From assembly GCF_014058425.1 (NCBI RefSeq), contig NZ_CP049366.1, positions 868,001-932,000 of the forward strand: a stretch of DNA of 64,000 bases, given 5' to 3'. This DNA is from Companilactobacillus pabuli (GTDB taxonomy: Bacteria; Bacillota; Bacilli; Lactobacillales; Lactobacillaceae). How positions within the stretch are numbered: the stretch's first letter is position 1; every line of letters begins with the position of its first letter. Made by a program: the position numbers and the translations under genes. Of the stretch, positions 13,745 through 39,677 are shown one piece after another. The notes beneath the pieces are model-generated. The model saw only the letters and a list, made by a program, of their open reading frames with translations, did no database searches and was not told the origin of the DNA.

Positions 13745-14875
13745 TTGACTTGGCTTGTATGGCGAGTTTCACCATTTATCACTAGTATTTTCTTTATTTT
13801 GGGTGTTTTTACACTCTTTGAAGTATTAGTTGATTGGATTAAAGTAAAGCTTCATTCAAAAGACATTAATATCAAAGATCATACGGTTGAATCTGTTGTA
13901 GGAATAATTTACATGCTGATTTTTTCCTTTGGCTTGCAGTATTCTGTTTTGGGGCAATCGTATTCTTGGGAATTTATGAATTTTCAGTTGATAGCAATCG
14001 TATTTTGTGCGTATTTTTTGAATATTCGCATTCCATATTATTTTCTTTTACCGATTGTTTTACTGTTTATGATCTACAATTCCTCAGTCGGGTACTGGGA
14101 ATCATGGTGTCACGCAATTACGTTAATAATATTTTATGTAACGATGAATAAAGGCTATCTATGGTCACAAAAACTAAAATCACCTTTATTCTTTTATTTA
14201 GGTACAGGTACATTCTTTGGAGCATTACTGTGGTATTTCATGAAATTGAAATTTGATTTCTCTTGGACTACTTATGTTCAGGAATTATCATATTTAGTAA
14301 TTTTTGAATTGCTATTGTATTCTTATGTCAGAATGCTCTTCAGAGATGACCGTCTCAAAGCACGATTAGCTGAAGTTGCTAGTCACGATGCGTTGACAAA
14401 GGCTTTGAACTATTCAGCCTATGAAACAGAAATTAAATATTTATTTAAAAACAGTAAAGATAACAATTTGAGTTTTTCTATGGTCATGTTCGATATCGAT
14501 CATTTTAAACGTGTAAATGATACCTACGGACATTTAGCTGGTGATCGGGTTTTACAACATACAGTTGACGTTGTGCAAACAGTTTTGAATGCCAATGATT
14601 CGTCGGTGAAGCTATATCGAACTGGCGGAGAAGAATTCAATGTTTTATTTCCTAATTATGATCTTGAAGGAACGCAAGCAATTGTTGAAGAAATATTTAC
14701 CGCTTTAAATCATTTAAAAGTTGAAACTGACAAGAAAGAAATTGAAATTTCTGTTTCAATGGGGGTTTCTCAAATTTCGAATAAAGATGTTACACCAAAT
14801 GATTTTTATAAGCGAGTTGATAACAATCTTTATTACTCTAAAAAGCACGGCCGTATGCAAATTACGACAATTTAA
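13745..14875 (+). CDS. Membrane diguanylate cyclase (GGDEF), copy 1
   Basis: 376 residues: about six hydrophobic segments in the first 200 residues, then a GGDEF domain (about 205-375). The active-site motif is GGEEF (294-298), and the metal/substrate motif FDIDHFKR is intact, so it should make c-di-GMP. The position where an inhibitory RxxD I-site would lie does not match, suggesting no product inhibition. The TTG start follows GGGAGG and gives the N-terminus MTW that is also seen in copy 2. The N-terminal sensor region is not a named domain I recognise. Tandem paralogue of the next gene. Confidence 0.87.
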   Translation: MTWLVWRVSPFITSIFFILGVFTLFEVLVDWIKVKLHSKDINIKDHTVESVVGIIYMLIFSFGLQYSVLGQSYSWEFMNFQLIAIVFCAYFLNIRIPYYFLLPIVLLFMIYNSSVGYWESWCHAITLIIFYVTMNKGYLWSQKLKSPLFFYLGTGTFFGALLWYFMKLKFDFSWTTYVQELSYLVIFELLLYSYVRMLFRDDRLKARLAEVASHDALTKALNYSAYETEIKYLFKNSKDNNLSFSMVMFDIDHFKRVNDTYGHLAGDRVLQHTVDVVQTVLNANDSSVKLYRTGGEEFNVLFPNYDLEGTQAIVEEIFTALNHLKVETDKKEIEISVSMGVSQISNKDVTPNDFYKRVDNNLYYSKKHGRMQITTI

Positions 14876-14912: not shown

Positions 14913-15014
14913 ATAAAAAAGATATTAAAAATAAGTCCTTTTATAATAAAATAAATATAAAATTGTAGTAGAATAAGGCTAGTGAGTTAATACCTGAGAT
15001 GGGAGGGATGATTA

Positions 15015-16145
15015 ATGACTTGGTCTGTTTGGCGAGTGACGCCAGTAGTAACGAGTGTCTTTTTCATTTTGGGTGTTTTTACATTATACGTAGTTTTAGT
15101 TGATTGGTTGAAATCAAAAATACGTTTAAAATATCCAAAAGTCCGAGAGCATACGATTGAATCGTGGTTCGGCGTAATCTATATTTTGATTTTTATTTAT
15201 AGTTTGCAATTAGGAATCGCTGGGCAAGATAATTCTTGGTTATTTATGAATTTTCAATTGATTGCGGTTATCTTTTGTGCTTACTTTTTGGCTATTCATA
15301 TTCCATTGAAGGCTTTTTTGCCAATTGTAGTGTTGTTTATGTTGATTAATTCGTCACTTACTTATTGGGAGTCGTGGACTTATTCCGTGATAATTATTTT
15401 GTTCTATTGGTGTATGAATTATGTTTATAAGTGGTCGCAGAAGCACAATTATATCTTTGCAATTTATTTTATTACAGGAACCTTTTTTGGAATGATATTG
15501 TGGTTTTTGGTTAAAGTCAAATTCTCATTATCATGGTATATTTATCTTCAAGAAATTAGCTATTTCTTAGTATTTCAAGCGTTATTATACAGTTACATTA
15601 GAATGTTGAATAAAAATCAACGTTTGGAAAATAATTTGGCACGGTCTGCTCATCATGATGCGTTGACTCAAGCCAAAAATTATGCGGCTTATATGACAGA
15701 AGTCAGTGATTTGTTCCAAAATAGTCATAATAATAAATTGCATCTATCAATGATGATGTTCGATATTGATCATTTTAAGCGAATCAATGATACTTATGGG
15801 CATTTAGCGGGGGATAAAGTCTTGCAACATGTGGTGGATGTCGTTCAAACTGTAATAGATGAAAACGATTCGAGAATCAAATTGTATCGGACCGGTGGGG
15901 AGGAATTCAACGTCTTATTCCCTAGTTATGATTTGGATGAAACTCAAAAAGTTGTTCCTCAGATTTTTAGTGCCTTGAATCATTTAGGAATTGATTTCAA
16001 TGGCCAACACATTAATATTTCCGTCTCGATAGGTGTTTCTGAAGTATCTAAGAAAGACAACGATCCTAATGACTTCTACAAGCGAGTCGACGCTAATCTG
16101 TACCATTCAAAGGATAATGGTCGAATGCAAATAACCGCAAAATAA
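15015..16145 (+). CDS. Membrane diguanylate cyclase (GGDEF), copy 2
   Basis: Tandem paralogue of the 13745 gene with exactly the same length (376 residues) and layout: about six membrane spans, then GGDEF with GGEEF at 294-298 and an intact FDIDHFKR motif. The classical RxxD I-site is absent here as well. ATG start with GGGAGGG upstream. The N-terminal halves are clearly homologous but more diverged than the catalytic halves, which suggests a changed input signal with the same output. No EAL or PilZ gene is nearby. Confidence 0.87.
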   Translation: MTWSVWRVTPVVTSVFFILGVFTLYVVLVDWLKSKIRLKYPKVREHTIESWFGVIYILIFIYSLQLGIAGQDNSWLFMNFQLIAVIFCAYFLAIHIPLKAFLPIVVLFMLINSSLTYWESWTYSVIIILFYWCMNYVYKWSQKHNYIFAIYFITGTFFGMILWFLVKVKFSLSWYIYLQEISYFLVFQALLYSYIRMLNKNQRLENNLARSAHHDALTQAKNYAAYMTEVSDLFQNSHNNKLHLSMMMFDIDHFKRINDTYGHLAGDKVLQHVVDVVQTVIDENDSRIKLYRTGGEEFNVLFPSYDLDETQKVVPQIFSALNHLGIDFNGQHINISVSIGVSEVSKKDNDPNDFYKRVDANLYHSKDNGRMQITAK

Positions 16146-16148
16146 AAG

Positions 16149-16180
16149 AAGGAATCCAATTAAGAAGATTCTTTCTTAAG
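16149..16180 (+). terminator. Hairpin after second GGDEF gene
   Basis: GAAGGAATC / GATTCTTTC stem (one G-U pair) starting four bases after the stop codon, with only a short T-rich tail (TTAAG); a weak terminator. Confidence 0.5.
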
Positions 16181-16195
16181 TTAGGTTACTATTAT

Positions 16196-16273
16196 ATGTC
16201 GCCGTCTGTTCTGTTTTGTGGATACTGGGACGTATTGGGCATCCACAAAGCTGCCACTATCGAATAACGACAT
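16196..16273. repeat. Palindromic structure 1 in the 16.2-16.6 kb gap
   Basis: Perfect inner hairpin TTTGTGGAT (16215-16223) / ATCCACAAA (16241-16249) inside flanking ATGTCG (16196) / CGACAT (16268). No reading frame explains it. Confidence 0.5.
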
Positions 16274-16300
16274 TTATTATTTATCTCAAGTAAATCAAAA

Positions 16301-16356
16301 AGCCTCAATTCAAAGATAGTCGATTTAATTATCTATCTGAATTGAGGTTTATTTGT
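16301..16356. terminator. Stem-loop between convergent transcripts
   Basis: Stem CCTCAATTC..AGATAG / CTATCTGAATTGAGG with an A-rich left flank and T-rich right flank, so it could terminate in both directions. Confidence 0.65.
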
Positions 16357-16387
16357 TTGGTCATAAAAATATAAAACTACTATCTAG

Positions 16388-16549
16388 TCCGGAATAGCAA
16401 AGAAAATTGGCTCAGTAGTGAAATTATTCTTAGCAACTTGTTGCTTAGAATAAGGCCGAGTTTTGAGATTTTGCGCACTTGGTTTATGCAAAAGCTCAAA
16501 ATCGTGCCCACTACGTTCCAGCCAAATTTTCTTTGCTATGGAGGACGGA
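16388..16549. repeat. Cloverleaf-like inverted-repeat element
   Basis: Outer arms ATAGCAAAGAAAATTGGCT (16394-16412) and AGCCAAATTTTCTTTGCTAT (16520-16539) pair almost perfectly, extended inward by GTAGTG / CACTAC. Inside are two further hairpins: TATTCTTAGCAA / TTGCTTAGAATA (16425-16452), and a second pairing 16454-16477 with 16487-16508. This makes a three-way junction. It lies in the 446-bp gap between convergent genes, with no plausible protein. It could be an interspersed palindromic repeat or a structured RNA. Confidence 0.6.
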
Positions 16550-16591
16550 ATATTACTGTTCACCTAAGAAAGAACCATAAAGATTTCTTTT

Positions 16592-17932
16592 TTAGGCAGT
16601 TTTTACTTCTGGACTACTTTTAGGCATGACCAAATTTAAGATGATAGCAGCAATAGCAGCTACGGCAATTGGGGAACCTAATAAGTATTGTAAAATTTGT
16701 GGTGCGTTCTTAGTAACACTAGCAGGTAATAGAACTAAAGCTAATGTTAAAACGATTGGAATACCGATGATGTAAAGATCACGGTCAGTTGTTTCTAAGC
16801 CACGGATGACGTTAAGACCATTTAGCATGATCGTAACGGTGATGATGGCGAAGACTCCACCAATCACTGGTGCGGGAATGGCAGCTAGAAAGGCGGATAA
16901 TTTACTGAAAAATCCTAAAATTGAGAACCAAATACCGGCGAATAAGAAAACACGTTTACTGGCAACACCGGTAATAGAAATGACACCAGCGTTTGTAGAA
17001 TAACCAGTAACAGGAGTAGTTCCTAGTAGGGAAGCTACCATACAGCTAAGTCCTTCACCGATAATTCCGTGATTCCATTGTTTATCAGTGATTTCATGAT
17101 TTGTAACGGCACCCATAGCGAACCAAGTACCAGTAGTTTCAGTCGTTATAACGGCGTAAATGATGATGAAAGTAATGATTGCTGATGGACTAAAATTGAT
17201 GCCCCAGTGGAAGATAGTTCTTTCTGGAAGACCGAACCAAGCGGCCTCACTAACTTCTTTCCAATTGAACATGCCCATCATAGTTGAAACGATCGTACCT
17301 ACACCCAGTGCTAAAATAATTGAACTAGTTCTGAAAAAGCGACGAACTTTTTTAAACTTCAAGCTGATACCAACAGAAACCAATAATGTCAATGCGGTAA
17401 CTGAAGCTAAGATGATATTGTTGTTAACATTGCCACCAGCATTAAAGATGTTGTCATTCAATGCTGTAGGAATCAATGATAATCCAACACAAGTAATAAT
17501 AGTTCCACCGACTAAAGCGGGGACTAAACGGTTAATTATCTTCTGGAAGATTCCAGTTGCACCTAGAATAATCAAGATAATTGAGCCAATTAAGGTAGCT
17601 CCAATCAAAGTACCCATTCCGTTACCTTTTAAACCACCAGATGCCAAGACAACACCAGCGGCAGCTCCCAAGGGAACAAATGAAGGGCCTTGAGAAACAG
17701 GCATTTTCATGAAGACGAAAGTTTGTAAAATTGTACCGATTCCGGCAGCTAAGAATGTTGATTGCAATAATCCCATTTGGTCACCCAGACCCATGGCCAT
17801 CATACCAGCTAAAACAATTGGTGGTACATAAATATCCATTGCTAAGACGTGTTGTAATCCTAAGAAACCAGCTTCTCCCATGCCAATTTTGTCATCAGGA
17901 CCAACGAGTAGACTACTCTTATTATTATCCAT
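16592..17932 (-). CDS. NCS2 family purine/xanthine permease
   Basis: 446-residue nucleobase:cation symporter-2 protein with about 12-14 membrane segments. Family features include the QGPSFVPLGAA segment and the later TTETTGTWFA and TPVTGYSTNAGV stretches. The start codon overlaps the stop codon of guaD by one base (TAATG), so translation is coupled and the pair works together. Because guanine deaminase yields xanthine, the likely substrate is a purine such as guanine or xanthine rather than uracil (inference). Confidence 0.83.
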   Translation of the reverse strand: MDNNKSSLLVGPDDKIGMGEAGFLGLQHVLAMDIYVPPIVLAGMMAMGLGDQMGLLQSTFLAAGIGTILQTFVFMKMPVSQGPSFVPLGAAAGVVLASGGLKGNGMGTLIGATLIGSIILIILGATGIFQKIINRLVPALVGGTIITCVGLSLIPTALNDNIFNAGGNVNNNIILASVTALTLLVSVGISLKFKKVRRFFRTSSIILALGVGTIVSTMMGMFNWKEVSEAAWFGLPERTIFHWGINFSPSAIITFIIIYAVITTETTGTWFAMGAVTNHEITDKQWNHGIIGEGLSCMVASLLGTTPVTGYSTNAGVISITGVASKRVFLFAGIWFSILGFFSKLSAFLAAIPAPVIGGVFAIITVTIMLNGLNVIRGLETTDRDLYIIGIPIVLTLALVLLPASVTKNAPQILQYLLGSPIAVAAIAAIILNLVMPKSSPEVKTA

Positions 17933-19260
17933 TATTCTTCTCCTAAGTTGTCATGTACTAATTTTCCAGATACATAAACTTTTTTGATATTTTCTTTATT
18001 CGTGTGGTAAATCAGTCTTTCAAAAATTTCTTGCGGTTCATTAGATGAAATGTTGAAATATTGATCTTGAACAATTTGTAAATCAGCTTTGAAGCCAGAT
18101 TTAATTTGTCCTGATTTGATATGCAAAGCATTTGCTCCGCCAACAGTGGCAAGGTAAAAGGCATTTGCGGCTGAAATACGTGCATTTTCATGTCCTTGTT
18201 CAGTTAGAACTTGTGAAGACATGATACTTTGTTGCATATTGCGATAAAGACTAGGAGAAAAACCTCCGGAAATATCGGTACCTAAACCGACTTTAACGTT
18301 TTTTTGATGAGCATCTTGGACTCGCATAACGGAGTTACCAAAATAAATATTAGAAATTGGACAGTGAGCAATGGCTGTTTTACGACTATTGAAAGTGTCT
18401 AAATCTTGGTCACTTAGTTGAGTACCGTGTGCCATAACTGATTTATCAGTCAATAATCCAAATTTGTCCAAAACTTCAGTGTCTCTTAAATGATAATGTT
18501 CTAGAGCATAGTGATCTTCCCAAATACTTTCACTGCAGTGTGATTGAATAGGTAAATCATATTTCTTCGCTAATTGTCCAAGACCTTGTAGAGTCTCTTC
18601 GGTACAACTAGGAACAAACCTCGGCGTTATAACGGGGGTTATTTCAGCATTGGTTTGTTTTTGCAAATCGAACATCTTTTGAATAAATGCCTCAGTTTGT
18701 TTTAATGCAACTTGAGAATTTTGATCACGATAATAATCTGGTGTTTGATCAGGATTGTCCATCGCAACTTTTCCAATGAAGGCTCTTTGACCAAGTTTCG
18801 CACAGATTTTAGCAAGAATCAGATTAGCTTCATTGTGAATCGAACCAAAAAATAATCCGGTCGTCGTTCCGTTAGCTAGGAGTTCTTTAATTAGACTGTA
18901 GTAAATTTTTTCGGCATATTCTTTATCCTTGAATTTAGCTTCCAATGGAAAGGTATAAGAATTTAGCCATTCATTCAGCGGTTTATCCAAAGCTAAACCA
19001 GCTTGAGGCCATTGTGGCGCATGAATATGTAAATCAGTGAATCCTGGTAGAATGTAGCTACCTTTTTCAACTCGATGATAAGAACCATTTTGTTGAGCAG
19101 TTTGTTTAACAGGCTGATAATCGCTATCAGTAGCGGATATAACTCGGTCAATAATTCCTGACTGATCTACACATATAAGTACTTCTGGTGTAAAATCCGC
19201 CTTGTCAAACGAAACTGAAGAAATAATAGTTCCCTCAATAACTATTTGATAGGTGATAAT
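17932..19260 (-). CDS. guaD: Guanine deaminase, apparent ATT start
   Basis: Zinc amidohydrolase converting guanine to xanthine. The first conventional in-frame start (TTG ending at 18990) would give 353 codons and remove the metal-binding HxH motif. Upstream the frame stays open for 90 more codons and encodes family sequence, including PGFTDLHIHAPQ with H78 and H80, before a TAG. In those 90 codons there is no ATG, GTG, TTG or CTG. The first codon after the TAG is ATT (19260-19258), 6 nt after AAGGAAG, giving 442 residues, a normal family length. Other catalytic parts are present: QSHCSES and GTDISGG. The start is therefore either a real AUU codon or a single-base change of ATG. Confidence 0.85.
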   Translation of the reverse strand: MITYQIVIEGTIISSVSFDKADFTPEVLICVDQSGIIDRVISATDSDYQPVKQTAQQNGSYHRVEKGSYILPGFTDLHIHAPQWPQAGLALDKPLNEWLNSYTFPLEAKFKDKEYAEKIYYSLIKELLANGTTTGLFFGSIHNEANLILAKICAKLGQRAFIGKVAMDNPDQTPDYYRDQNSQVALKQTEAFIQKMFDLQKQTNAEITPVITPRFVPSCTEETLQGLGQLAKKYDLPIQSHCSESIWEDHYALEHYHLRDTEVLDKFGLLTDKSVMAHGTQLSDQDLDTFNSRKTAIAHCPISNIYFGNSVMRVQDAHQKNVKVGLGTDISGGFSPSLYRNMQQSIMSSQVLTEQGHENARISAANAFYLATVGGANALHIKSGQIKSGFKADLQIVQDQYFNISSNEPQEIFERLIYHTNKENIKKVYVSGKLVHDNLGEE

Positions 19261-19324
19261 CTAACACTTCCTTAAATTTTATATACGTAAGAATAACATG
19301 AATGATTATGTAAATAAATAGTAA

Positions 19325-19337
19325 ATAGTTCGTATTT
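19325..19337 (-). promoter_or_regulatory. PurBox-like site upstream of guaD
   Basis: On the minus strand AAATACGAACTAT matches the Gram-positive PurBox AWWWCCGAACWWT in 12 of 13 positions, about 65 bp upstream of the guaD start, a place where an activator-type PurR site would fit. The rest of the 353-bp gap 19261-19613 is AT-rich and carries cre-like sites and the promoter of the next gene. Confidence 0.45.
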
Positions 19338-19407
19338 TGCTTGCAAGATAATAAAAAGTGTGAAATATTAACTTTTATCGTTATGAAAATGCTAATAATA
19401 TATATGT

Positions 19408-19421
19408 TGAATACGATTACA
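19408..19421. promoter_or_regulatory. cre-like site in guaD/EIIC divergent region
   Basis: TGAATACGATTACA matches TGWAANCGNTNWCA with one mismatch. A weaker cre-like sequence, TTAAACCGTTATAA (two mismatches), lies at 19463-19476. Either could serve the PTS gene to the right or guaD to the left. Confidence 0.45.
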
Positions 19422-19552
19422 AACACTGATATAAATTAATTTACTTTCTTTTAAAAAACTGTTTAAACCGTTATAAATAAAAGAAATTAATTTTTTGAAA
19501 AAAATTTGACCGATATTGTTCTAAAAAGATTGAAAATTAATAAAATAATGAC

Positions 19553-19582
19553 TTGTCATATAAAAATTATCTAACGTATACT
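19553..19582 (+). promoter_or_regulatory. Promoter of orphan EIIC
   Basis: TTGTCA (19553-19558) and TATACT (19577-19582) with an 18-bp spacer, 31 nt before the GTG start. Confidence 0.7.
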
Positions 19583-19613
19583 TTTATCAGGGATAATATG
19601 GGGGAGTACGTTT

Positions 19614-20894
19614 GTGCAAGAAAAATTTGAAAAAAAATTGACGCCTTTAGCTAATAAGTTAGCTGAAAACGTCGTTTTAAAATCGTTACGCGATGGCTTT
19701 TTGATTATTACGCCACTGATTATAGTTATTTCGATATTTTTATTGATTGGTAATTTTCCAATTCCAGGATGGACAAAATTTTGGACTGGAATCTTTGGTC
19801 ATAAGTGGATTGAATGGTTTAGTGCAGTTTCTGGATCAGTGTTTAATTTTACCGGCTTATTGTCGTGCTTTGGGATTTCTTATGCTTATAGTAAAAATCG
19901 TGGATTAGTGCCAGTACATGCCACAGCGGTAGCATTAGTTTCTTTTTTCATTTTAACGCCAATGACTGTAACATTTGGCCAACATGAAGTTGGAGCTGTT
20001 AAAACTTTATATCTTGGTCCTAATGGAATTTTCTTAGGACTTTTTACAGCTTTAGTTAGTGTCGAGTTGTTTAGATTCGCTAAAAAGCGTAAATGGACGA
20101 TTAAGATGCCTAAAGGTGTACCGGATATGGTTCGAGAATCATTTGATGTCTTGTTGCCTAGTGGTTTTGTAATTTTGATTTTCTTTTTGATTAGGATTAT
20201 TTTTAGTTTAACATCTATGGGGACAGCTTATAATTTTATTTATACGCTGTTGCAAGCACCATTAAAGCATGTCGGGAATTCATTAGGTTCAGTTTTTTTG
20301 TATATTTTCATAGCTTCAATTTTGTGGTGTTTTGGAATTAATGGACCGTCAGTCGTTAATAGTGTCTGGTCACCGATATTCTTTGTCTTGAGTCAGGATA
20401 ACTTAAAGGCTTTCCAAACAGGTCATCCGTTACCTCACATCTATACTGAGCAGTTCATTGAAGATTTTGCGACATATGGTGGCGGTGGCAGTGTCTTATC
20501 GTTGATCATCGTGATGGTGTTTGTCTGTAAATCTAAACGAATCAAAGAATTAGGTAAATTGACGCTTATTCCTAGTATCTTTGGAATTGGCGAGCCACTT
20601 ATTTATGGGTTACCAGTTGTTTTGAATCCAATTATTGCGATACCGTTTGTAATAACACCGGTCGTGAATGTTTTGTTGTCAGGATTAGCTTTTTCAATTC
20701 ATTTGGTGCCATATACTAACGGTGTCATGTTGCCATGGACTACACCACCGATCATTTCGGGTTGGTTGACGACAGGAAGTTGGCGTGGTGCTGCGCTGCA
20801 AGTTATTGAGATTATTATTGGTATTATGATTTATTTGCCTTTTATTAAAATGTTAGATAATAAATATTTGTTGGATGAAGCAGCTGCTGAATAA
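19614..20894 (+). CDS. PTS EIIC, Lac/Cel family, orphan
   Basis: 426-residue membrane subunit related to the celB product at 9993, with the same N-terminal LRDGF region, about ten membrane spans and an EPLIYGLP motif equivalent to NEPILFG. It starts with GTG behind GGGGGAG. No EIIA or EIIB gene is adjacent; the next gene is a HAD phosphatase. It must borrow phosphotransfer subunits from another locus, for example the EIIB/EIIA at 5.3-6.0 kb, or it may have lost them. Sugar unknown. Confidence 0.82.
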   Translation: MQEKFEKKLTPLANKLAENVVLKSLRDGFLIITPLIIVISIFLLIGNFPIPGWTKFWTGIFGHKWIEWFSAVSGSVFNFTGLLSCFGISYAYSKNRGLVPVHATAVALVSFFILTPMTVTFGQHEVGAVKTLYLGPNGIFLGLFTALVSVELFRFAKKRKWTIKMPKGVPDMVRESFDVLLPSGFVILIFFLIRIIFSLTSMGTAYNFIYTLLQAPLKHVGNSLGSVFLYIFIASILWCFGINGPSVVNSVWSPIFFVLSQDNLKAFQTGHPLPHIYTEQFIEDFATYGGGGSVLSLIIVMVFVCKSKRIKELGKLTLIPSIFGIGEPLIYGLPVVLNPIIAIPFVITPVVNVLLSGLAFSIHLVPYTNGVMLPWTTPPIISGWLTTGSWRGAALQVIEIIIGIMIYLPFIKMLDNKYLLDEAAAE

Positions 20895-20919
20895 GTGGTT
20901 GTTTTTTTTTTGATGTATT

Positions 20920-20933
20920 TGAAAGCGCTTAAA
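20920..20933 (+). promoter_or_regulatory. cre-like site before HAD gene
   Basis: TGAAAGCGCTTAAA matches the cre consensus with one mismatch, 43 bp before the HAD start codon. Confidence 0.5.
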
Positions 20934-20975
20934 TGTTAAGCTATTATCAAAATAAACAGTGAAGGGAGCATAATT

Positions 20976-21794
20976 ATGCCAAAAATCAAATTAGTAGCAA
21001 TGGATATTGATGATACCTTGTTAGATGATAAGAAGAACATTTCTTTACAAAATAAAACGGCTATTCAGAGTGCACTTGATGATGGGGTCAAGATAGTATT
21101 AAGTTCAGGAAGAACCTTCAATGGGATGATTGAATATTTGGATGAATTAGGTATTGAAGGTAATGATCAATTTGTAATTATTGACGGTGGTGGTGTCGTT
21201 CAGACAGTATCAGGACATATTATCTATCAACAGACTTTGTCGAATGCTGCCTATCGGAAGATTGATAAATATGTAGTTGATAATGGACTGCATTATAATG
21301 CCGTAGATGTAGAAGGAAATACTTATACTAGTAATCGAGATTTTATTGATAAATATACTGTTTTACAAGCTTTTGAAAATAACAAAGGATTAATTATTAA
21401 GAGTCCAGATGAGCTACCTAATGATTTTGAAATAGTAAAAGCTATTTTAAATGAGGATGGATCAAAATTGGATGCTATTACACCAGAAGTAAATGATCTG
21501 TTTGGAAAAAACCATTACGTAGTAAGAACGGATGTTGGTTTTTTGGAGATCATGCCACAACATGTCGATAAAGGCAACGCCTTATTACATTTAGCTGATC
21601 ATCTAGGAATTGATATAAAAAATACTTTGGCAATTGGTGATGGAGCCAATGATATACCAATGTTAAAACAAGCTGGAGTATCCGTGGTCATGGAAAATGC
21701 CGCTGAATCAATAAAAGAAATAGCAGATTTCGTTACTAAAAATAATAATGAAAGTGGCGTGGCAACAGCTTTTGAGAAATATGTTTTAAATTAA
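20976..21794 (+). CDS. Cof-type HAD phosphatase
   Basis: 272-residue HAD hydrolase with nucleophile D10 and acid/base D12 in MDIDDT, SSGRT as motif II, and GDGANDIPML as motif IV. It is closely related to the HAD proteins at 31323 and 37769, sharing the segments TYTSNRDF/KYT and VRTDVGFLEI. It follows the orphan EIIC, with a cre-like site between. Probably a cytosolic phosphatase for a sugar phosphate made by the neighbouring PTS systems; specificity cannot be inferred. Confidence 0.85.
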   Translation: MPKIKLVAMDIDDTLLDDKKNISLQNKTAIQSALDDGVKIVLSSGRTFNGMIEYLDELGIEGNDQFVIIDGGGVVQTVSGHIIYQQTLSNAAYRKIDKYVVDNGLHYNAVDVEGNTYTSNRDFIDKYTVLQAFENNKGLIIKSPDELPNDFEIVKAILNEDGSKLDAITPEVNDLFGKNHYVVRTDVGFLEIMPQHVDKGNALLHLADHLGIDIKNTLAIGDGANDIPMLKQAGVSVVMENAAESIKEIADFVTKNNNESGVATAFEKYVLN

Positions 21795-22100: not shown

Positions 22101-22952
22101 TTGGTACAAATAGTACAAGTTTTTAATAACAACAGTGCTCTGGTTGACATAGGAGACCATCGTCAAGCAATTGTGAATGGAACCGGCATTGCTTTTAACA
22201 AGCATAAGGGGTCGGAGATTGACTCTAAAAAAGTGAATAAGATTTTTTATTTAGATACAAAAGAATCACAACAAAATTTATATTTCTTGATTAAAGATAT
22301 TCCAATCGATATCGTAACTACTACTTATGAAATTATTGATTATGGTGTTAAAAAATATAAGTATCATGTACTAGATTATGCGTACATCACTTTAAGTGAT
22401 CATCTTTTAGGATCATATAACCGCATAATGGATGGTACTTATCAAGAAGCTTTAATCCCTGATATGCACAATGAATATCCTTTGGAATACAGAATTGCTG
22501 AACATGCTTTAGAAGTAATTAACAATAACTTGGGTGTTGAATTTCCTAAATCTGAAATTAAAAGTATTGCACTTCATTTTATCAATGCAAAAGGTAACGG
22601 GCCAGAAGAGAGTGGCCTTAAGAAAGATGAAAGCCAAGATATTAATGAAATTGTAAATGGCATCTTAGACAAGTATGGAATCAAACGTATCGGAAGCAAT
22701 AGTAATTATTATGACCGATTTATGATTCATCTCCAATATTTAGCTGGTCGTTTGGATAAGCCAGAAGATAAAAAGGAAATTAGTCCAAGTTTAGAGATCG
22801 AAATGAAGAAGTCATATCCAGATTCTTTTGAAATTGCTAGTGAAATGTATGACGAGCTTCAAAATAAACTTAATAAGAATTTAGGTTCAAATGAGTTAAT
22901 TTATTTCATTATTCATATTCAGCGTTTAATTCAAGAAGAAGTTAAAAGTTAG
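22101..22952 (+). CDS. lacT: LacT/LicT-type antiterminator 1
   Basis: 283-residue BglG-family RNA-binding antiterminator: N-terminal CAT domain (about 1-56, QVFNNNSALV) that binds the RAT hairpin, then PRD1 and PRD2. All four regulatory histidines are visible, in LSDHL, IALHF, IHLQY and IIHIQ. PTS phosphorylation of these controls activity. TTG start after AAAGGAGG. Two RAT/terminator modules lie just upstream, so it controls its own operon together with the following lacF, lacE and lacG genes. Confidence 0.88.
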   Translation: MVQIVQVFNNNSALVDIGDHRQAIVNGTGIAFNKHKGSEIDSKKVNKIFYLDTKESQQNLYFLIKDIPIDIVTTTYEIIDYGVKKYKYHVLDYAYITLSDHLLGSYNRIMDGTYQEALIPDMHNEYPLEYRIAEHALEVINNNLGVEFPKSEIKSIALHFINAKGNGPEESGLKKDESQDINEIVNGILDKYGIKRIGSNSNYYDRFMIHLQYLAGRLDKPEDKKEISPSLEIEMKKSYPDSFEIASEMYDELQNKLNKNLGSNELIYFIIHIQRLIQEEVKS

Positions 22953-26598: not shown

Positions 26599-26709
26599 CT
26601 AGTAAATTGTTACTATTAGATTAGGCGAGATTACTAGACATTTCACTTGGAGATAACTGTTTTTAATGAACAGCTATATCTAGGGGGGATGTCAGTAATC
26701 TCGTCTTTT
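26599..26709 (+). promoter_or_regulatory. RAT and overlapping terminator, lac-type operon 2
   Basis: RAT at 26599-26637, bounded by CTAGTAA / TTACTAG, with core TTGTTACTATTA...TTAGGCGAGA nearly identical to operon 1. Its 3' half CGAGATTACTAGACA pairs with TGTCAGTAATCTCG (26690-26703), followed by TTTTT. Only one module is present, unlike the doubled one in operon 1. Confidence 0.8.
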
Positions 26710-26733
26710 TGCGTCTGGAAAGGGGGCTGGTTG

Positions 26734-27588
26734 ATGGTAGAAATTGCTCAAGTCTTTAATAATAATAGTGCTTTGGTTAACCTAGGAGATCATAAGCAGG
26801 CAATTGTTAAGGGTAAGGGTATCGGTTTTCACATGACAAAAGGATCAAATTTAGAATCAAATAAAATCGAAAAAATATTTTATTTAAATACTAAAGGATC
26901 CCAAGAAAACTTATTTTTCCTAATGAAAGATATACCAATCGATGTGGTTACCACTACTTATGAAATTATTGATTATGCTAAAAGAAAATTTGATTATAAT
27001 GTTTTGGATTATGTTTATATCACGTTAAGTGATCATATTTTTGGCTCATATAAAAGATATCTTTCACATACGTATTCAGAAAGTTTAGTTCCTGATATGA
27101 GCAATCAATATACGACAGAATATTTAATCGCCAGTCATGGCTTAGATGTAATTAATAAAAATCTAGGTGTCAACTTTCCAGAATCCGAAATAAAAAGTAT
27201 TGCTTTACATTTTATCAATGCTCGCGGCGAAGAAAGTCAGAAAAATTATTTGAAGAAAGATGAAACAATCGATATTAATCAAATTGTTAAGGGCATTTTA
27301 ATTGATAATAATATTTTTCGAGAAGAGGGAAATGGAAATTATTATGATCGTTTCATGATACATCTTCAATATTTAACTGGTCGGTTAGATGACCAAACTG
27401 ATGAAAATGAGGACTTTAGTGAGAAATTGGAAAGAGAAATGCAGGATTCGTATCCTGTCTCTTATCAAATAGCTAAAGATATTTATGTCACTATTCAAAA
27501 CAAGCTAAATAGAAAATTAAGTAGCAGTGAGCTTTTATATTTCATCATTCACATTCAACGTTTAACGCACGAAAAAACAAAAAGTTAG
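26734..27588 (+). CDS. lacT: LacT/LicT-type antiterminator 2
   Basis: 284-residue BglG-family antiterminator: CAT domain (QVFNNNSALVNLG) plus two PRDs with histidines in LSDHI, IALHF, IHLQY and IIHIQ. The frame extends upstream to 26647, but that part is the terminator hairpin; AAAGGGGG followed by ATG 26734 is the real start. Its leader RAT is almost the same as in operon 1, so cross-talk between the two antiterminators is likely. Confidence 0.87.
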   Translation: MVEIAQVFNNNSALVNLGDHKQAIVKGKGIGFHMTKGSNLESNKIEKIFYLNTKGSQENLFFLMKDIPIDVVTTTYEIIDYAKRKFDYNVLDYVYITLSDHIFGSYKRYLSHTYSESLVPDMSNQYTTEYLIASHGLDVINKNLGVNFPESEIKSIALHFINARGEESQKNYLKKDETIDINQIVKGILIDNNIFREEGNGNYYDRFMIHLQYLTGRLDDQTDENEDFSEKLEREMQDSYPVSYQIAKDIYVTIQNKLNRKLSSSELLYFIIHIQRLTHEKTKS

Positions 27589-32231: not shown

Positions 32232-33089
32232 ATGCGATTACTGATTGAACAAGTTTTTAATAACAATACAGCTGTCGTTAATTTGGGGGATGACCAACAC
32301 GCGATAGTTAAAGGTAAAGGGATAGCCTTCAATAAATCCAAAAAATCCTTTCTAGATAGTTCTAAAATAGAGAGGATTTTTTATTTAGATTCTGAAGAAT
32401 CACAAAAGGATTTGTATTTTTTATTAAAAGATATTCCTATCGATGTAGTAACCACAACTTATGAAATAGTCGATTATGCTAAGAAAAAATTTAATTATTC
32501 GGTTATGGATTACATTTATATAACGCTCAGTGACCATATTTTTGGAGCGTACCAGCGTTACAATAATGGGCAATATAAGGAAAGCCACATTCCTGATATG
32601 AGTGATAATTATTTGGATGAATATTTGATAGCTAGTAAGGGATTGAATATTATTAATCACAATTTGAATATTCAATTACCAGACTCAGAAATTAAAAATA
32701 TAGCGTTACATTTTATCAATGCTAAAACCGATAAAAAAATTCCTAAGCATAACGATAAAATTAAAGTTGATTTCGATAAAATTATTAAACGGGTAATGAT
32801 CAAGAATAATATTTTCCGAACTAAAAGCAATAGTAATTATTATGATCGTTTCATGGTTCATCTACAGTATTTATCCCAGAGATTGAATAATAAATCTCAA
32901 GACACTAATTTTGATAAAAAAATTGAATTAGAGATGGAAAGAGACTACCCGGGCTCAACGAGTATTGCCAAACAAATTTCATTCGAGATCAAACAGGCGA
33001 TGGGAGTGGAATTGAGTAGTAAAGAGTTATTGTATTTTATTATTCACATTCAGCGAATCACTCAGGAAGATGGTTTAAATCAAAAATAA
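32232..33089 (+). CDS. Orphan LacT/LicT-type antiterminator 3
   Basis: 285-residue BglG-family protein strongly similar to the two LacT proteins nearby, with an intact CAT domain (QVFNNNTAVVNLG) and all four PRD histidines (LSDHI, IALHF, VHLQY, IIHIQ). Unlike them it has no RAT/terminator in its 96-bp leader and no PTS or glycosidase gene downstream; a strong terminator follows. It is therefore an apparently functional regulator without a local target, which could act on the RATs at 21.9 and 26.6 kb. ATG after GAGGAGGGG. Confidence 0.85.
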   Translation: MRLLIEQVFNNNTAVVNLGDDQHAIVKGKGIAFNKSKKSFLDSSKIERIFYLDSEESQKDLYFLLKDIPIDVVTTTYEIVDYAKKKFNYSVMDYIYITLSDHIFGAYQRYNNGQYKESHIPDMSDNYLDEYLIASKGLNIINHNLNIQLPDSEIKNIALHFINAKTDKKIPKHNDKIKVDFDKIIKRVMIKNNIFRTKSNSNYYDRFMVHLQYLSQRLNNKSQDTNFDKKIELEMERDYPGSTSIAKQISFEIKQAMGVELSSKELLYFIIHIQRITQEDGLNQK

Positions 33090-38846: not shown

Positions 38847-39677
38847 TTGAGAATAGTTAAAGTAATCAATAACAATATTGTTACGTCAACTCAGGACGGC
38901 AATGAAGTAATTGTTATGGGTAAAGGATTAGGATTCAACAAAACTGGTGGAGACATTATTCCTCAAGCAAAAATTGACAAGGTTTTTGCTTTGAATGCTT
39001 CTGCGAGCGTTGATAGATTCAAATTACTTTTGAAAGATGTTCCAATGCAAGAACTGCAAGCCAGTGATGAAATCATTTCGTATGCAAAATTGTCATTAGG
39101 CAAAAGATTAAGCGACAGCATTTATGTTGCTTTAACTGATCATATTCATTTTGCAATTCAACGTTTCAAGAAAGGTATGGATTTTGGGAATGCATTATCT
39201 TGGGAAGTTAAGCATTTTTACAATCATGAATATTTGATTGGTAAAGAAGGGCTGAACATTATTGAAAAAAGAACTGGCACACGTTTACCAGATGATGAAG
39301 CGGTGACAATAGCTTTACATCTAGTAAATGCAGAATTAGACAGTTCTATGGATCATACAGTCGGGATGACTAAGCTTATAAAAGAAATATTAGGAATAAT
39401 TCAATATACGTTTCATGTTGAATTGTCAGACACCAGTTTGGCTTATGAACGACTTATGACCCATCTTAAATTCTTTATACAAAGAGTTATGACGAATCAG
39501 CCACTACCAGATAATGATGACAAACTATTCAATATGATCAAAGAGACTTACCCTAATGAATTCAAATGCTCATTAAAAATTAGTAAATACGTTAAGAAGG
39601 AATTAAATTACGATTTGACTGATGCCGAGTTATCATACTTGACAATTCACATCAATCGAGTAATTACTGAAAATTAA
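38847..39677 (+). CDS. BglG/LicT-type antiterminator
   Basis: 276-residue BglG-family antiterminator: CAT domain (KVINNNIVTS, then MGKGLGFNK) and two PRDs with histidines in LTDHI, IALHL, THLKF and TIHIN. It is more distant from the three LacT-like proteins and goes with a different RAT sequence. TTG start after AAAGGGG. It acts on the RAT in its own leader and on a second one before the EIIBCA gene. Confidence 0.87.
   Translation: MRIVKVINNNIVTSTQDGNEVIVMGKGLGFNKTGGDIIPQAKIDKVFALNASASVDRFKLLLKDVPMQELQASDEIISYAKLSLGKRLSDSIYVALTDHIHFAIQRFKKGMDFGNALSWEVKHFYNHEYLIGKEGLNIIEKRTGTRLPDDEAVTIALHLVNAELDSSMDHTVGMTKLIKEILGIIQYTFHVELSDTSLAYERLMTHLKFFIQRVMTNQPLPDNDDKLFNMIKETYPNEFKCSLKISKYVKKELNYDLTDAELSYLTIHINRVITEN

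Follow-up and report, generated by a model that had tools for sequence, protein, structure and literature searches.

How is the guanine deaminase gene guaD of Companilactobacillus pabuli translated, when the first 90 codons of its reading frame offer no ordinary start codon? The gene lies on the minus strand of NZ_CP049366.1, within positions 868001-932000 (the window, that is, the whole stretch of 64,000 nucleotides (nt) analysed here; contig 1 of the genome we label G000), upstream of a gene for an NCS2 nucleobase permease. An earlier note on this stretch had proposed that guaD begins with ATT. We conclude, with a probability of about 0.7, that guaD is translated from AUU and that the stretch from its Shine-Dalgarno (SD) sequence to codon 26 is a riboswitch-like cis-regulatory RNA that also serves the permease (Table 1). 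The AUU start of the earlier note was upheld by 24 of 24 orthologues, while its alternative of a strain-specific change or read error fell away; the conserved RNA element around the ATT lay beyond it.

The frame itself is as the note described. Codons 1-90 of the window gene contain no in-frame ATG, GTG, TTG or CTG, and the first ATG, GTG or TTG is a TTG at 18990, codon 91. On the minus strand the frame is bounded by TAG, followed by the ATT 6 nt behind AAGGAAG; the same spacing is 3-13 nt in 31 ATG genes of the window. The HxH metal motif (H78 and H80), which had been placed upstream of the first canonical codon, is indeed there, both histidines being invariant in an alignment of 17 proteins. 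Read from ATT, the product matches the NCBIfam guanine deaminase model TIGR02967 with 391.7 bits (cut-off 375.4) over residues 23-432, and Pfam Amidohydro_1 from residue 69; the closest named relative by protein is C. formosensis (96%). Codons 27-89, upstream of the window gene's first canonical codon, have a ratio of nonsynonymous to synonymous divergence (pN/pS) of 0.31 across 24 genes, as translated sequence under purifying selection should show. We also scanned the window and 20 sampled stretches of the same genome, 8-20 kb each (448 kb in total). Of 342 coding-like open reading frames (ORFs), guaD was the sole outlier: it alone reached an upstream coding score of 10 or more (13.7, the runner-up having 4.3), in a scan that is blind to genes whose canonical codon soon follows a non-canonical start.

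GuaD matches were found in 29 of 36 Companilactobacillus genomes, 24 of them full length and five covering only the first 58-106 residues. Every full-length gene reads AAGGAAGTGTTAG-ATT, none has ATG at this place, TAG immediately precedes the ATT in all 24, and no canonical codon occurs before residue 10 in any. Alignment of the relatives, where an ATG might have been expected had the base changed only in this strain, thus gave ATT throughout, and with 24 of 24 species in agreement a single ATG-to-ATT change or a read error is excluded. Two other candidates were rejected. A GTG inside the SD cannot be the start in this genus, since it is out of frame and TAG precedes the ATT in all 24 genes, and a frameshift from an upstream GTG ORF was considered and dropped, the slippery sequence not being conserved in the window gene. 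Judged from these comparisons, guaD in Companilactobacillus almost certainly begins with AUU.

The leader alignment revealed two frozen blocks, AAGGAAGTGTYAGATTATCACCTATC and GACAAGGCGGATTTnnCACC, with block B lying 54-73 nt inside guaD. Over the 24 genes, synonymous divergence (pS) has a value of 0.000 for codons 1-5, 0.136 for codons 18-26 and 0.703 for codon 90 onward, and codons 18-22 are identical in all 24. Four groups of guaD genes from other genera have a pS of 0.46-0.70 in their first ten codons, so the nucleotide freeze belongs to Companilactobacillus. The element pattern occurs once each in 30 of the 36 genus genomes (a reversed-pattern control gave 0 in all 36), and these are the same 30 that carry a close permease orthologue, at 81-100% identity; the six genomes without the element have only permease paralogues at 26-30% identity. 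One orthologue (G025:C46:5233-6542) is split into two overlapping frames, likely a frameshift or an assembly error.

Six of the 30 element-bearing genomes are without full-length guaD. A 5′ stub remains in five (L025-L029), with CAG replacing the TAG before ATT in four of them, and the sixth (G022, locus L067) retains just the two blocks: the reading frame between them is lost, the interior is swapped for another short hairpin (UCAGU/ACUGA) and the block spacing is 28 nt shorter. Since the blocks are kept without full-length guaD, they are selected apart from the GuaD protein; and because the element is kept upstream of the permease in these genomes, the conservation of its letters exceeds what start-codon use alone would explain.

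A search of Rfam 15 with window positions 15000-21000 gave no match at an E value of 1 or better. Loci L067, L026, L029, L001 and L024 gave 11 weak matches, none at gathering score, among them one to rli47 (17.1 bits against 200, opposite strand) that overlaps the L067 element. A covariance model of the element was run over 397 genomes of the family: its 23 matches with an E value of 1.1e-9 or lower all fall in Companilactobacillus. The exact pattern was absent from viral contigs.

RNAfold and RNAalifold predict pairing of GUGU with ACAC, AGAUU with GAUUU, CCU with AGG and UCAAA with UUUGA, plus a distal hairpin; in this predicted fold GAU of codon 22 is the partner of the AUU start. The strongest support for the fold comes from a synonymous null in which the protein and both blocks were held fixed. 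Codons 6-17 gave a mean z of -2.28 in 12 representatives and -2.17 over all 24 genes, against -0.27 (standard deviation (sd) 0.52, minimum -1.19) in 16 control windows of the same genes, which shows that codon choice between the blocks favours stability.

An alternative helix, between the block B strand and codons ~47-54, also exceeds the synonymous null, with a mean z of -1.49 in the 12 representatives and -1.44 in the 24 genes; 26 control windows had a mean z of 0.03 (sd 0.42, minimum -0.99) and none reached the real value. In the stub loci L026-L029 the stretch matching codons 47-54 forms the 5′ arm of a terminator-like hairpin and is also able to pair with the element. This hairpin, present in four of the six guaD-less genomes, has an energy of -18.9 to -25.0 kcal, is followed by 6-7 T and lies 30-33 nt before the permease ATG (z -4.5, -3.4, -3.5 and -5.1; 0 of 200 shuffles as good in each). 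The element core and the hairpin occur together in the minimum-energy fold of three of the four leaders and 1.0 kcal above it in the fourth. L067 has, instead of a terminator-like hairpin, a hairpin GUUCUC/GAGAAC over the permease SD. The L026-L029 leaders additionally have a small hairpin with changing arms between the element, after block B, and the terminator-like hairpin.

We propose the following mechanism. The extended SD would help initiation at AUU. The folded element would be the off state, in which GUGU at the SD end pairs with ACAC and AUU with GAU, holding initiation down; the third base of AUU would pair with G, a pair impossible for AUG or GUG. In the on state, the block B strand would pair instead with codons ~47-54 and free the ribosome site, the permease following guaD through translational coupling. 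Where full-length guaD is missing, the element would act as a permease leader whose folding lets the terminator-like hairpin (four genomes) or the SD-masking hairpin (one genome) form. Since the element accompanies the permease and guaD, a purine is the most likely signal; control of guaD dependent on initiation factor 3 (IF3) is possible. More tentatively, we suggest a new riboswitch class, purine-sensing, with a core that contains the SD end and the AUU, the latter kept since AUG misfits, and which after loss of guaD became a transcription-terminating permease leader; on balance we would bet against this fuller version.

A number of results weigh against the proposed element or its switching. 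The core is so invariant (13 of 18 pairs never vary) that covariation does not prove the fold. Only two pairs changed on both sides, both from L067, with one further compensatory change in the distal stem; pair 11-84 is unpaired in five of 27 distinct rows, and a control with the partners slid by -2 columns scores higher for covariation (0.030) than the real pairing (0.022). Only the proportion of paired cells stands out, at 98.1% against at most 53.4%, and this in part by construction. The synonymous z is weak in L016 (-0.76), L022 (-0.39) and L023 (0.04), and 12 sequences compared with plain shuffles gave element z values between -0.68 and -3.54. Thermodynamic prediction gave no unusual masking of the guaD start region relative to the 31 window ATG genes, the mean unpaired probability being 0.46 against 0.48 (sd 0.11). 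In three of the guaD-less leaders the antiterminator-like state is less stable than the best fold by 4.4-7.4 kcal, and in L029 it equals that fold; forced antiterminator pairs exclude only the base of the terminator stem, and a simple terminator scan of L026 and L029, which allowed only loops of 3-8, did not list the hairpins. The covariance model found nothing convincing outside the genus among the 397 family genomes: of eight matches in other genera (E 0.15-0.84), seven were inspected and judged chance and the eighth is in G222, in a search whose stricter filters over more than 40 genomes lose weak matches. Finally, an AlphaFold2 model of GuaD (17 proteins) had a mean predicted local distance difference test score of 58.9 and, with values below 50 for residues 1-48, was uninformative at the N-terminus.

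Non-canonical starts extend beyond the genus. A search for guaD across the family gave matches in 99 of the 397 genomes, and we read 53 of the 64 strong Lactobacillaceae matches (E 6.5e-116 or better) outside Companilactobacillus, using an automatic rule that accepts ATG, GTG or TTG at 3-12 nt from the best SD. By this rule 25 of the 53 loci have no canonical start, of which only five (L083, L111, L115, L121 and L122) have neither an in-frame canonical codon nor a frame break. Eleven (L081, L087, L089, L094, L096, L097, L099, L105, L106, L108 and L123) have an in-frame GTG inside the SD, which in those loci is an open alternative start. The others were discounted for a TTG behind another SD (L128), frame breaks near the start (L085 and L124), a TTG adjoining the SD (L120, and L103, which also has CTG at the start place) or an ATG elsewhere in frame (L088, L095 and L114); L091 is ambiguous and was not counted among the clean cases. 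In families outside Lactobacillaceae a canonical codon is in place in 27 of 29 scored loci (30 taken), the exceptions being L163, with a good ATG missed by the rule, and L189, whose frame is broken. Lactobacillaceae guaD therefore likely tends towards an AUU, AUC or AUA start. On a tree made by a quick method from 83 of 107 loci (22 were removed by thinning, and L179 and L189 omitted), start states assigned by hand require at least seven changes, gains and losses not being distinguishable. AUU starts are thus wider than the element, as other genera appear to use AUU, AUC and AUA without frozen sequence, which suggests that the weak start came first.

Two minor observations concern these loci. 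The related genes L123 and L124 apparently differ by one A in an A run near the start, the frame being broken in L124, and guaD matches fall into three pieces at G095:C1:1782451-1783760 and two at G385:C123:65073-66409, possible pseudogenes.

The wider use of weak starts bears on the simplest rival, that the start codon alone is at work: AUU and the extended SD would keep guaD low and IF3-sensitive, and the frozen sequence would be a tuned ribosome-binding site. The starts without freeze in other genera agree with this, as do the extended SDs with AUU or AUA starts documented in Staphylococcus aureus and the organism's own infC (L192, G000:C1 near 1425963, minus strand). The latter reads CCGGAGGTGACTACTC-ATA-GCA-AGA with no ATG, GTG or TTG before codon 20 of the open frame, and so likely starts at AUA, a parallel to guaD. 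A tuned ribosome-binding site does not account for block B, which is nearly as frozen well inside the gene, for the persistence of both blocks 5′ of the permease without full-length guaD, or for the biased codons between the blocks, and we consider this rival improbable. We give still less credence to the blocks being a DNA operator or protein-binding site. Very strong sequence conservation with little covariation would fit such a site; however, L067 keeps the flanking complementarity despite its shortened spacing, the codons between the blocks appear chosen for folding energy, and the site lies downstream of the candidate promoter. That translation starts downstream at ATG, GTG or TTG, with the upstream frame a remnant or the ATT a sequencing error, is extremely unlikely. 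Three genus genes (L005, L019 and L020) do have ATG as their codon 12, well away from the SD, which also counts against an AUU start, and in some others the first canonical codon is at 36 or 56; yet the 24 species agree, the window gene's first canonical codon comes after the HxH motif, and codons 27-89 are constrained as coding sequence.

A leader-ORF attenuator is the rival that we take most seriously, although we think it somewhat unlikely. A ribosome on an AUU-initiated short ORF would block the terminator-like or SD-masking hairpin in guaD-less genomes, the peptide being incidental. The AUU frame runs without a stop through the terminator-like hairpin of L026, L027 and L029 and ends inside that of L028; in L025 it extends for 125 codons and overlaps the permease ATG, and in L067 it covers the 5′ arm of the SD-masking hairpin. 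In L026-L029 the gaps relative to full-length genes also appear to be multiples of three as far as the hairpin. On the other hand, an open frame may be mere inheritance from guaD, and L067 has lost the frame between blocks A and B. This attenuator is compatible with, rather than exclusive of, a riboswitch-like element around an AUU start.

Precedents exist for each half of the riboswitch-like reading. In E. coli, infC (encoding IF3) and pcnB have AUU starts that are thought to set low or feedback-controlled translation; unlike IF3, guaD has no role in initiation, so that no direct feedback loop of the infC kind is expected. In the SAM-III (SMK) and preQ1 riboswitches the fold includes the SD and can mask the ribosome site. 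The predicted guaD fold likewise takes in the ribosome site, but it extends to the start codon and 26 codons as well, and it has no Rfam match at gathering score. In S. aureus, a published account describes conserved starts with extended SDs, AUU in cvfC1 and AUA in ccpN, infC and citZ, with reporter initiation at ~10% of AUG in poor medium (PMC13009471). guaD resembles cvfC1 and ccpN in having a non-AUG start conserved across species behind an extended SD (PMC13009471), and differs from the cases described there in being another gene, with its start inside a frozen RNA element that outlasts gene loss. In Streptomyces, sigR has a GTC start, is repressed by IF3 and is the first gene of a coupled pair (PMC5472188). 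As with guaD, the non-canonical start sits on the first of two translationally coupled genes, and that of sigR limits output; the codon there is GTC, IF3 dependence was demonstrated, and the abstract names no RNA element (PMC5472188). As a protein, GuaD is a member of the TIGR02967 guanine deaminases and ordinary apart from its non-canonical start.

We found no paper on an AUU start of guaD or on the element in the open-access literature searched, which leaves most subscription papers and bioRxiv preprints outside. The overlap of start codon and putative regulatory RNA surviving gene loss is a new form of a known kind of system, and may represent a new riboswitch class. If the riboswitch-like reading is right, a metabolic enzyme joins the few genes known to have a conserved AUU start, and its start codon and coding sequence are shared with a regulatory RNA that outlives its gene of origin. 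Gene callers restricted to ATG, GTG and TTG starts would lose up to a fifth of guaD in these species (for the window gene, 90 of its 442 codons), and the metal motif with it. The compact element, which goes with one permease and occurs in food lactobacilli, is open to direct testing.

Table 1 Coordinates (window numbering) of guaD, the element and adjoining features.
Feature	Position	Strand	Remarks
NCS2 nucleobase permease	16592..17932	-	ATG overlaps the guaD stop by one base (TAATG)
guaD, guanine deaminase	17932..19260	-	442 codons from ATT, plus stop TAA (17932-17934)
Downstream partner of block B strand (codons 47-54)	19100..19122	-	Complementarity, synonymous null
Conserved RNA element	19184..19274	-	Spans SD, ATT and about the first 26 codons
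Block B, GACAAGGCGGATTTTACACC	19187..19206	-	Leader alignment
Variable hairpin between blocks (UCAAA/UUUGA stem and distal stem)	19205..19249	-	Folds, synonymous null
Block A, AAGGAAGTGTTAGATTATCACCTATC	19248..19273	-	In 30 of 36 genus genomes; 29 fit the pattern (with Y) exactly, one has three mismatches
ATT start codon	19258..19260	-	Directly 3′ of in-frame TAG (19261-19263)
Extended Shine-Dalgarno AAGGAAGTG	19265..19273	-	8 of 9 letters match AAGGAGGTG, the complement of the organism's own 16S tail
Candidate extended -10 promoter box TGTTATTCT	19290..19298	-	TGTTAnnCT in 29 of 29 loci L001-L029; differs in L067
Conserved CGAAC box	19324..19334	-	29 of 29 loci L001-L029

For the permease, the best model is the xanthine permease pbuX, below its cut-off, and the general purine/pyrimidine model NCS2_1 is above its cut-off. 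A simple promoter scan did not list the candidate -10 box. The CGAAC box resembles a PurR box. Elsewhere in the window, two adjacent and similar 376-residue membrane proteins with a GGEEF-like motif are encoded at 13745-14875 and 15015-16145, presumably tandem diguanylate cyclase-like genes. Four ORFs (22101-22952, 26647-27588, 32232-33089 and 38847-39677), which by their translations look like BglG/LicT-type antiterminators, adjoin phosphotransferase system and glycosidase-like genes.

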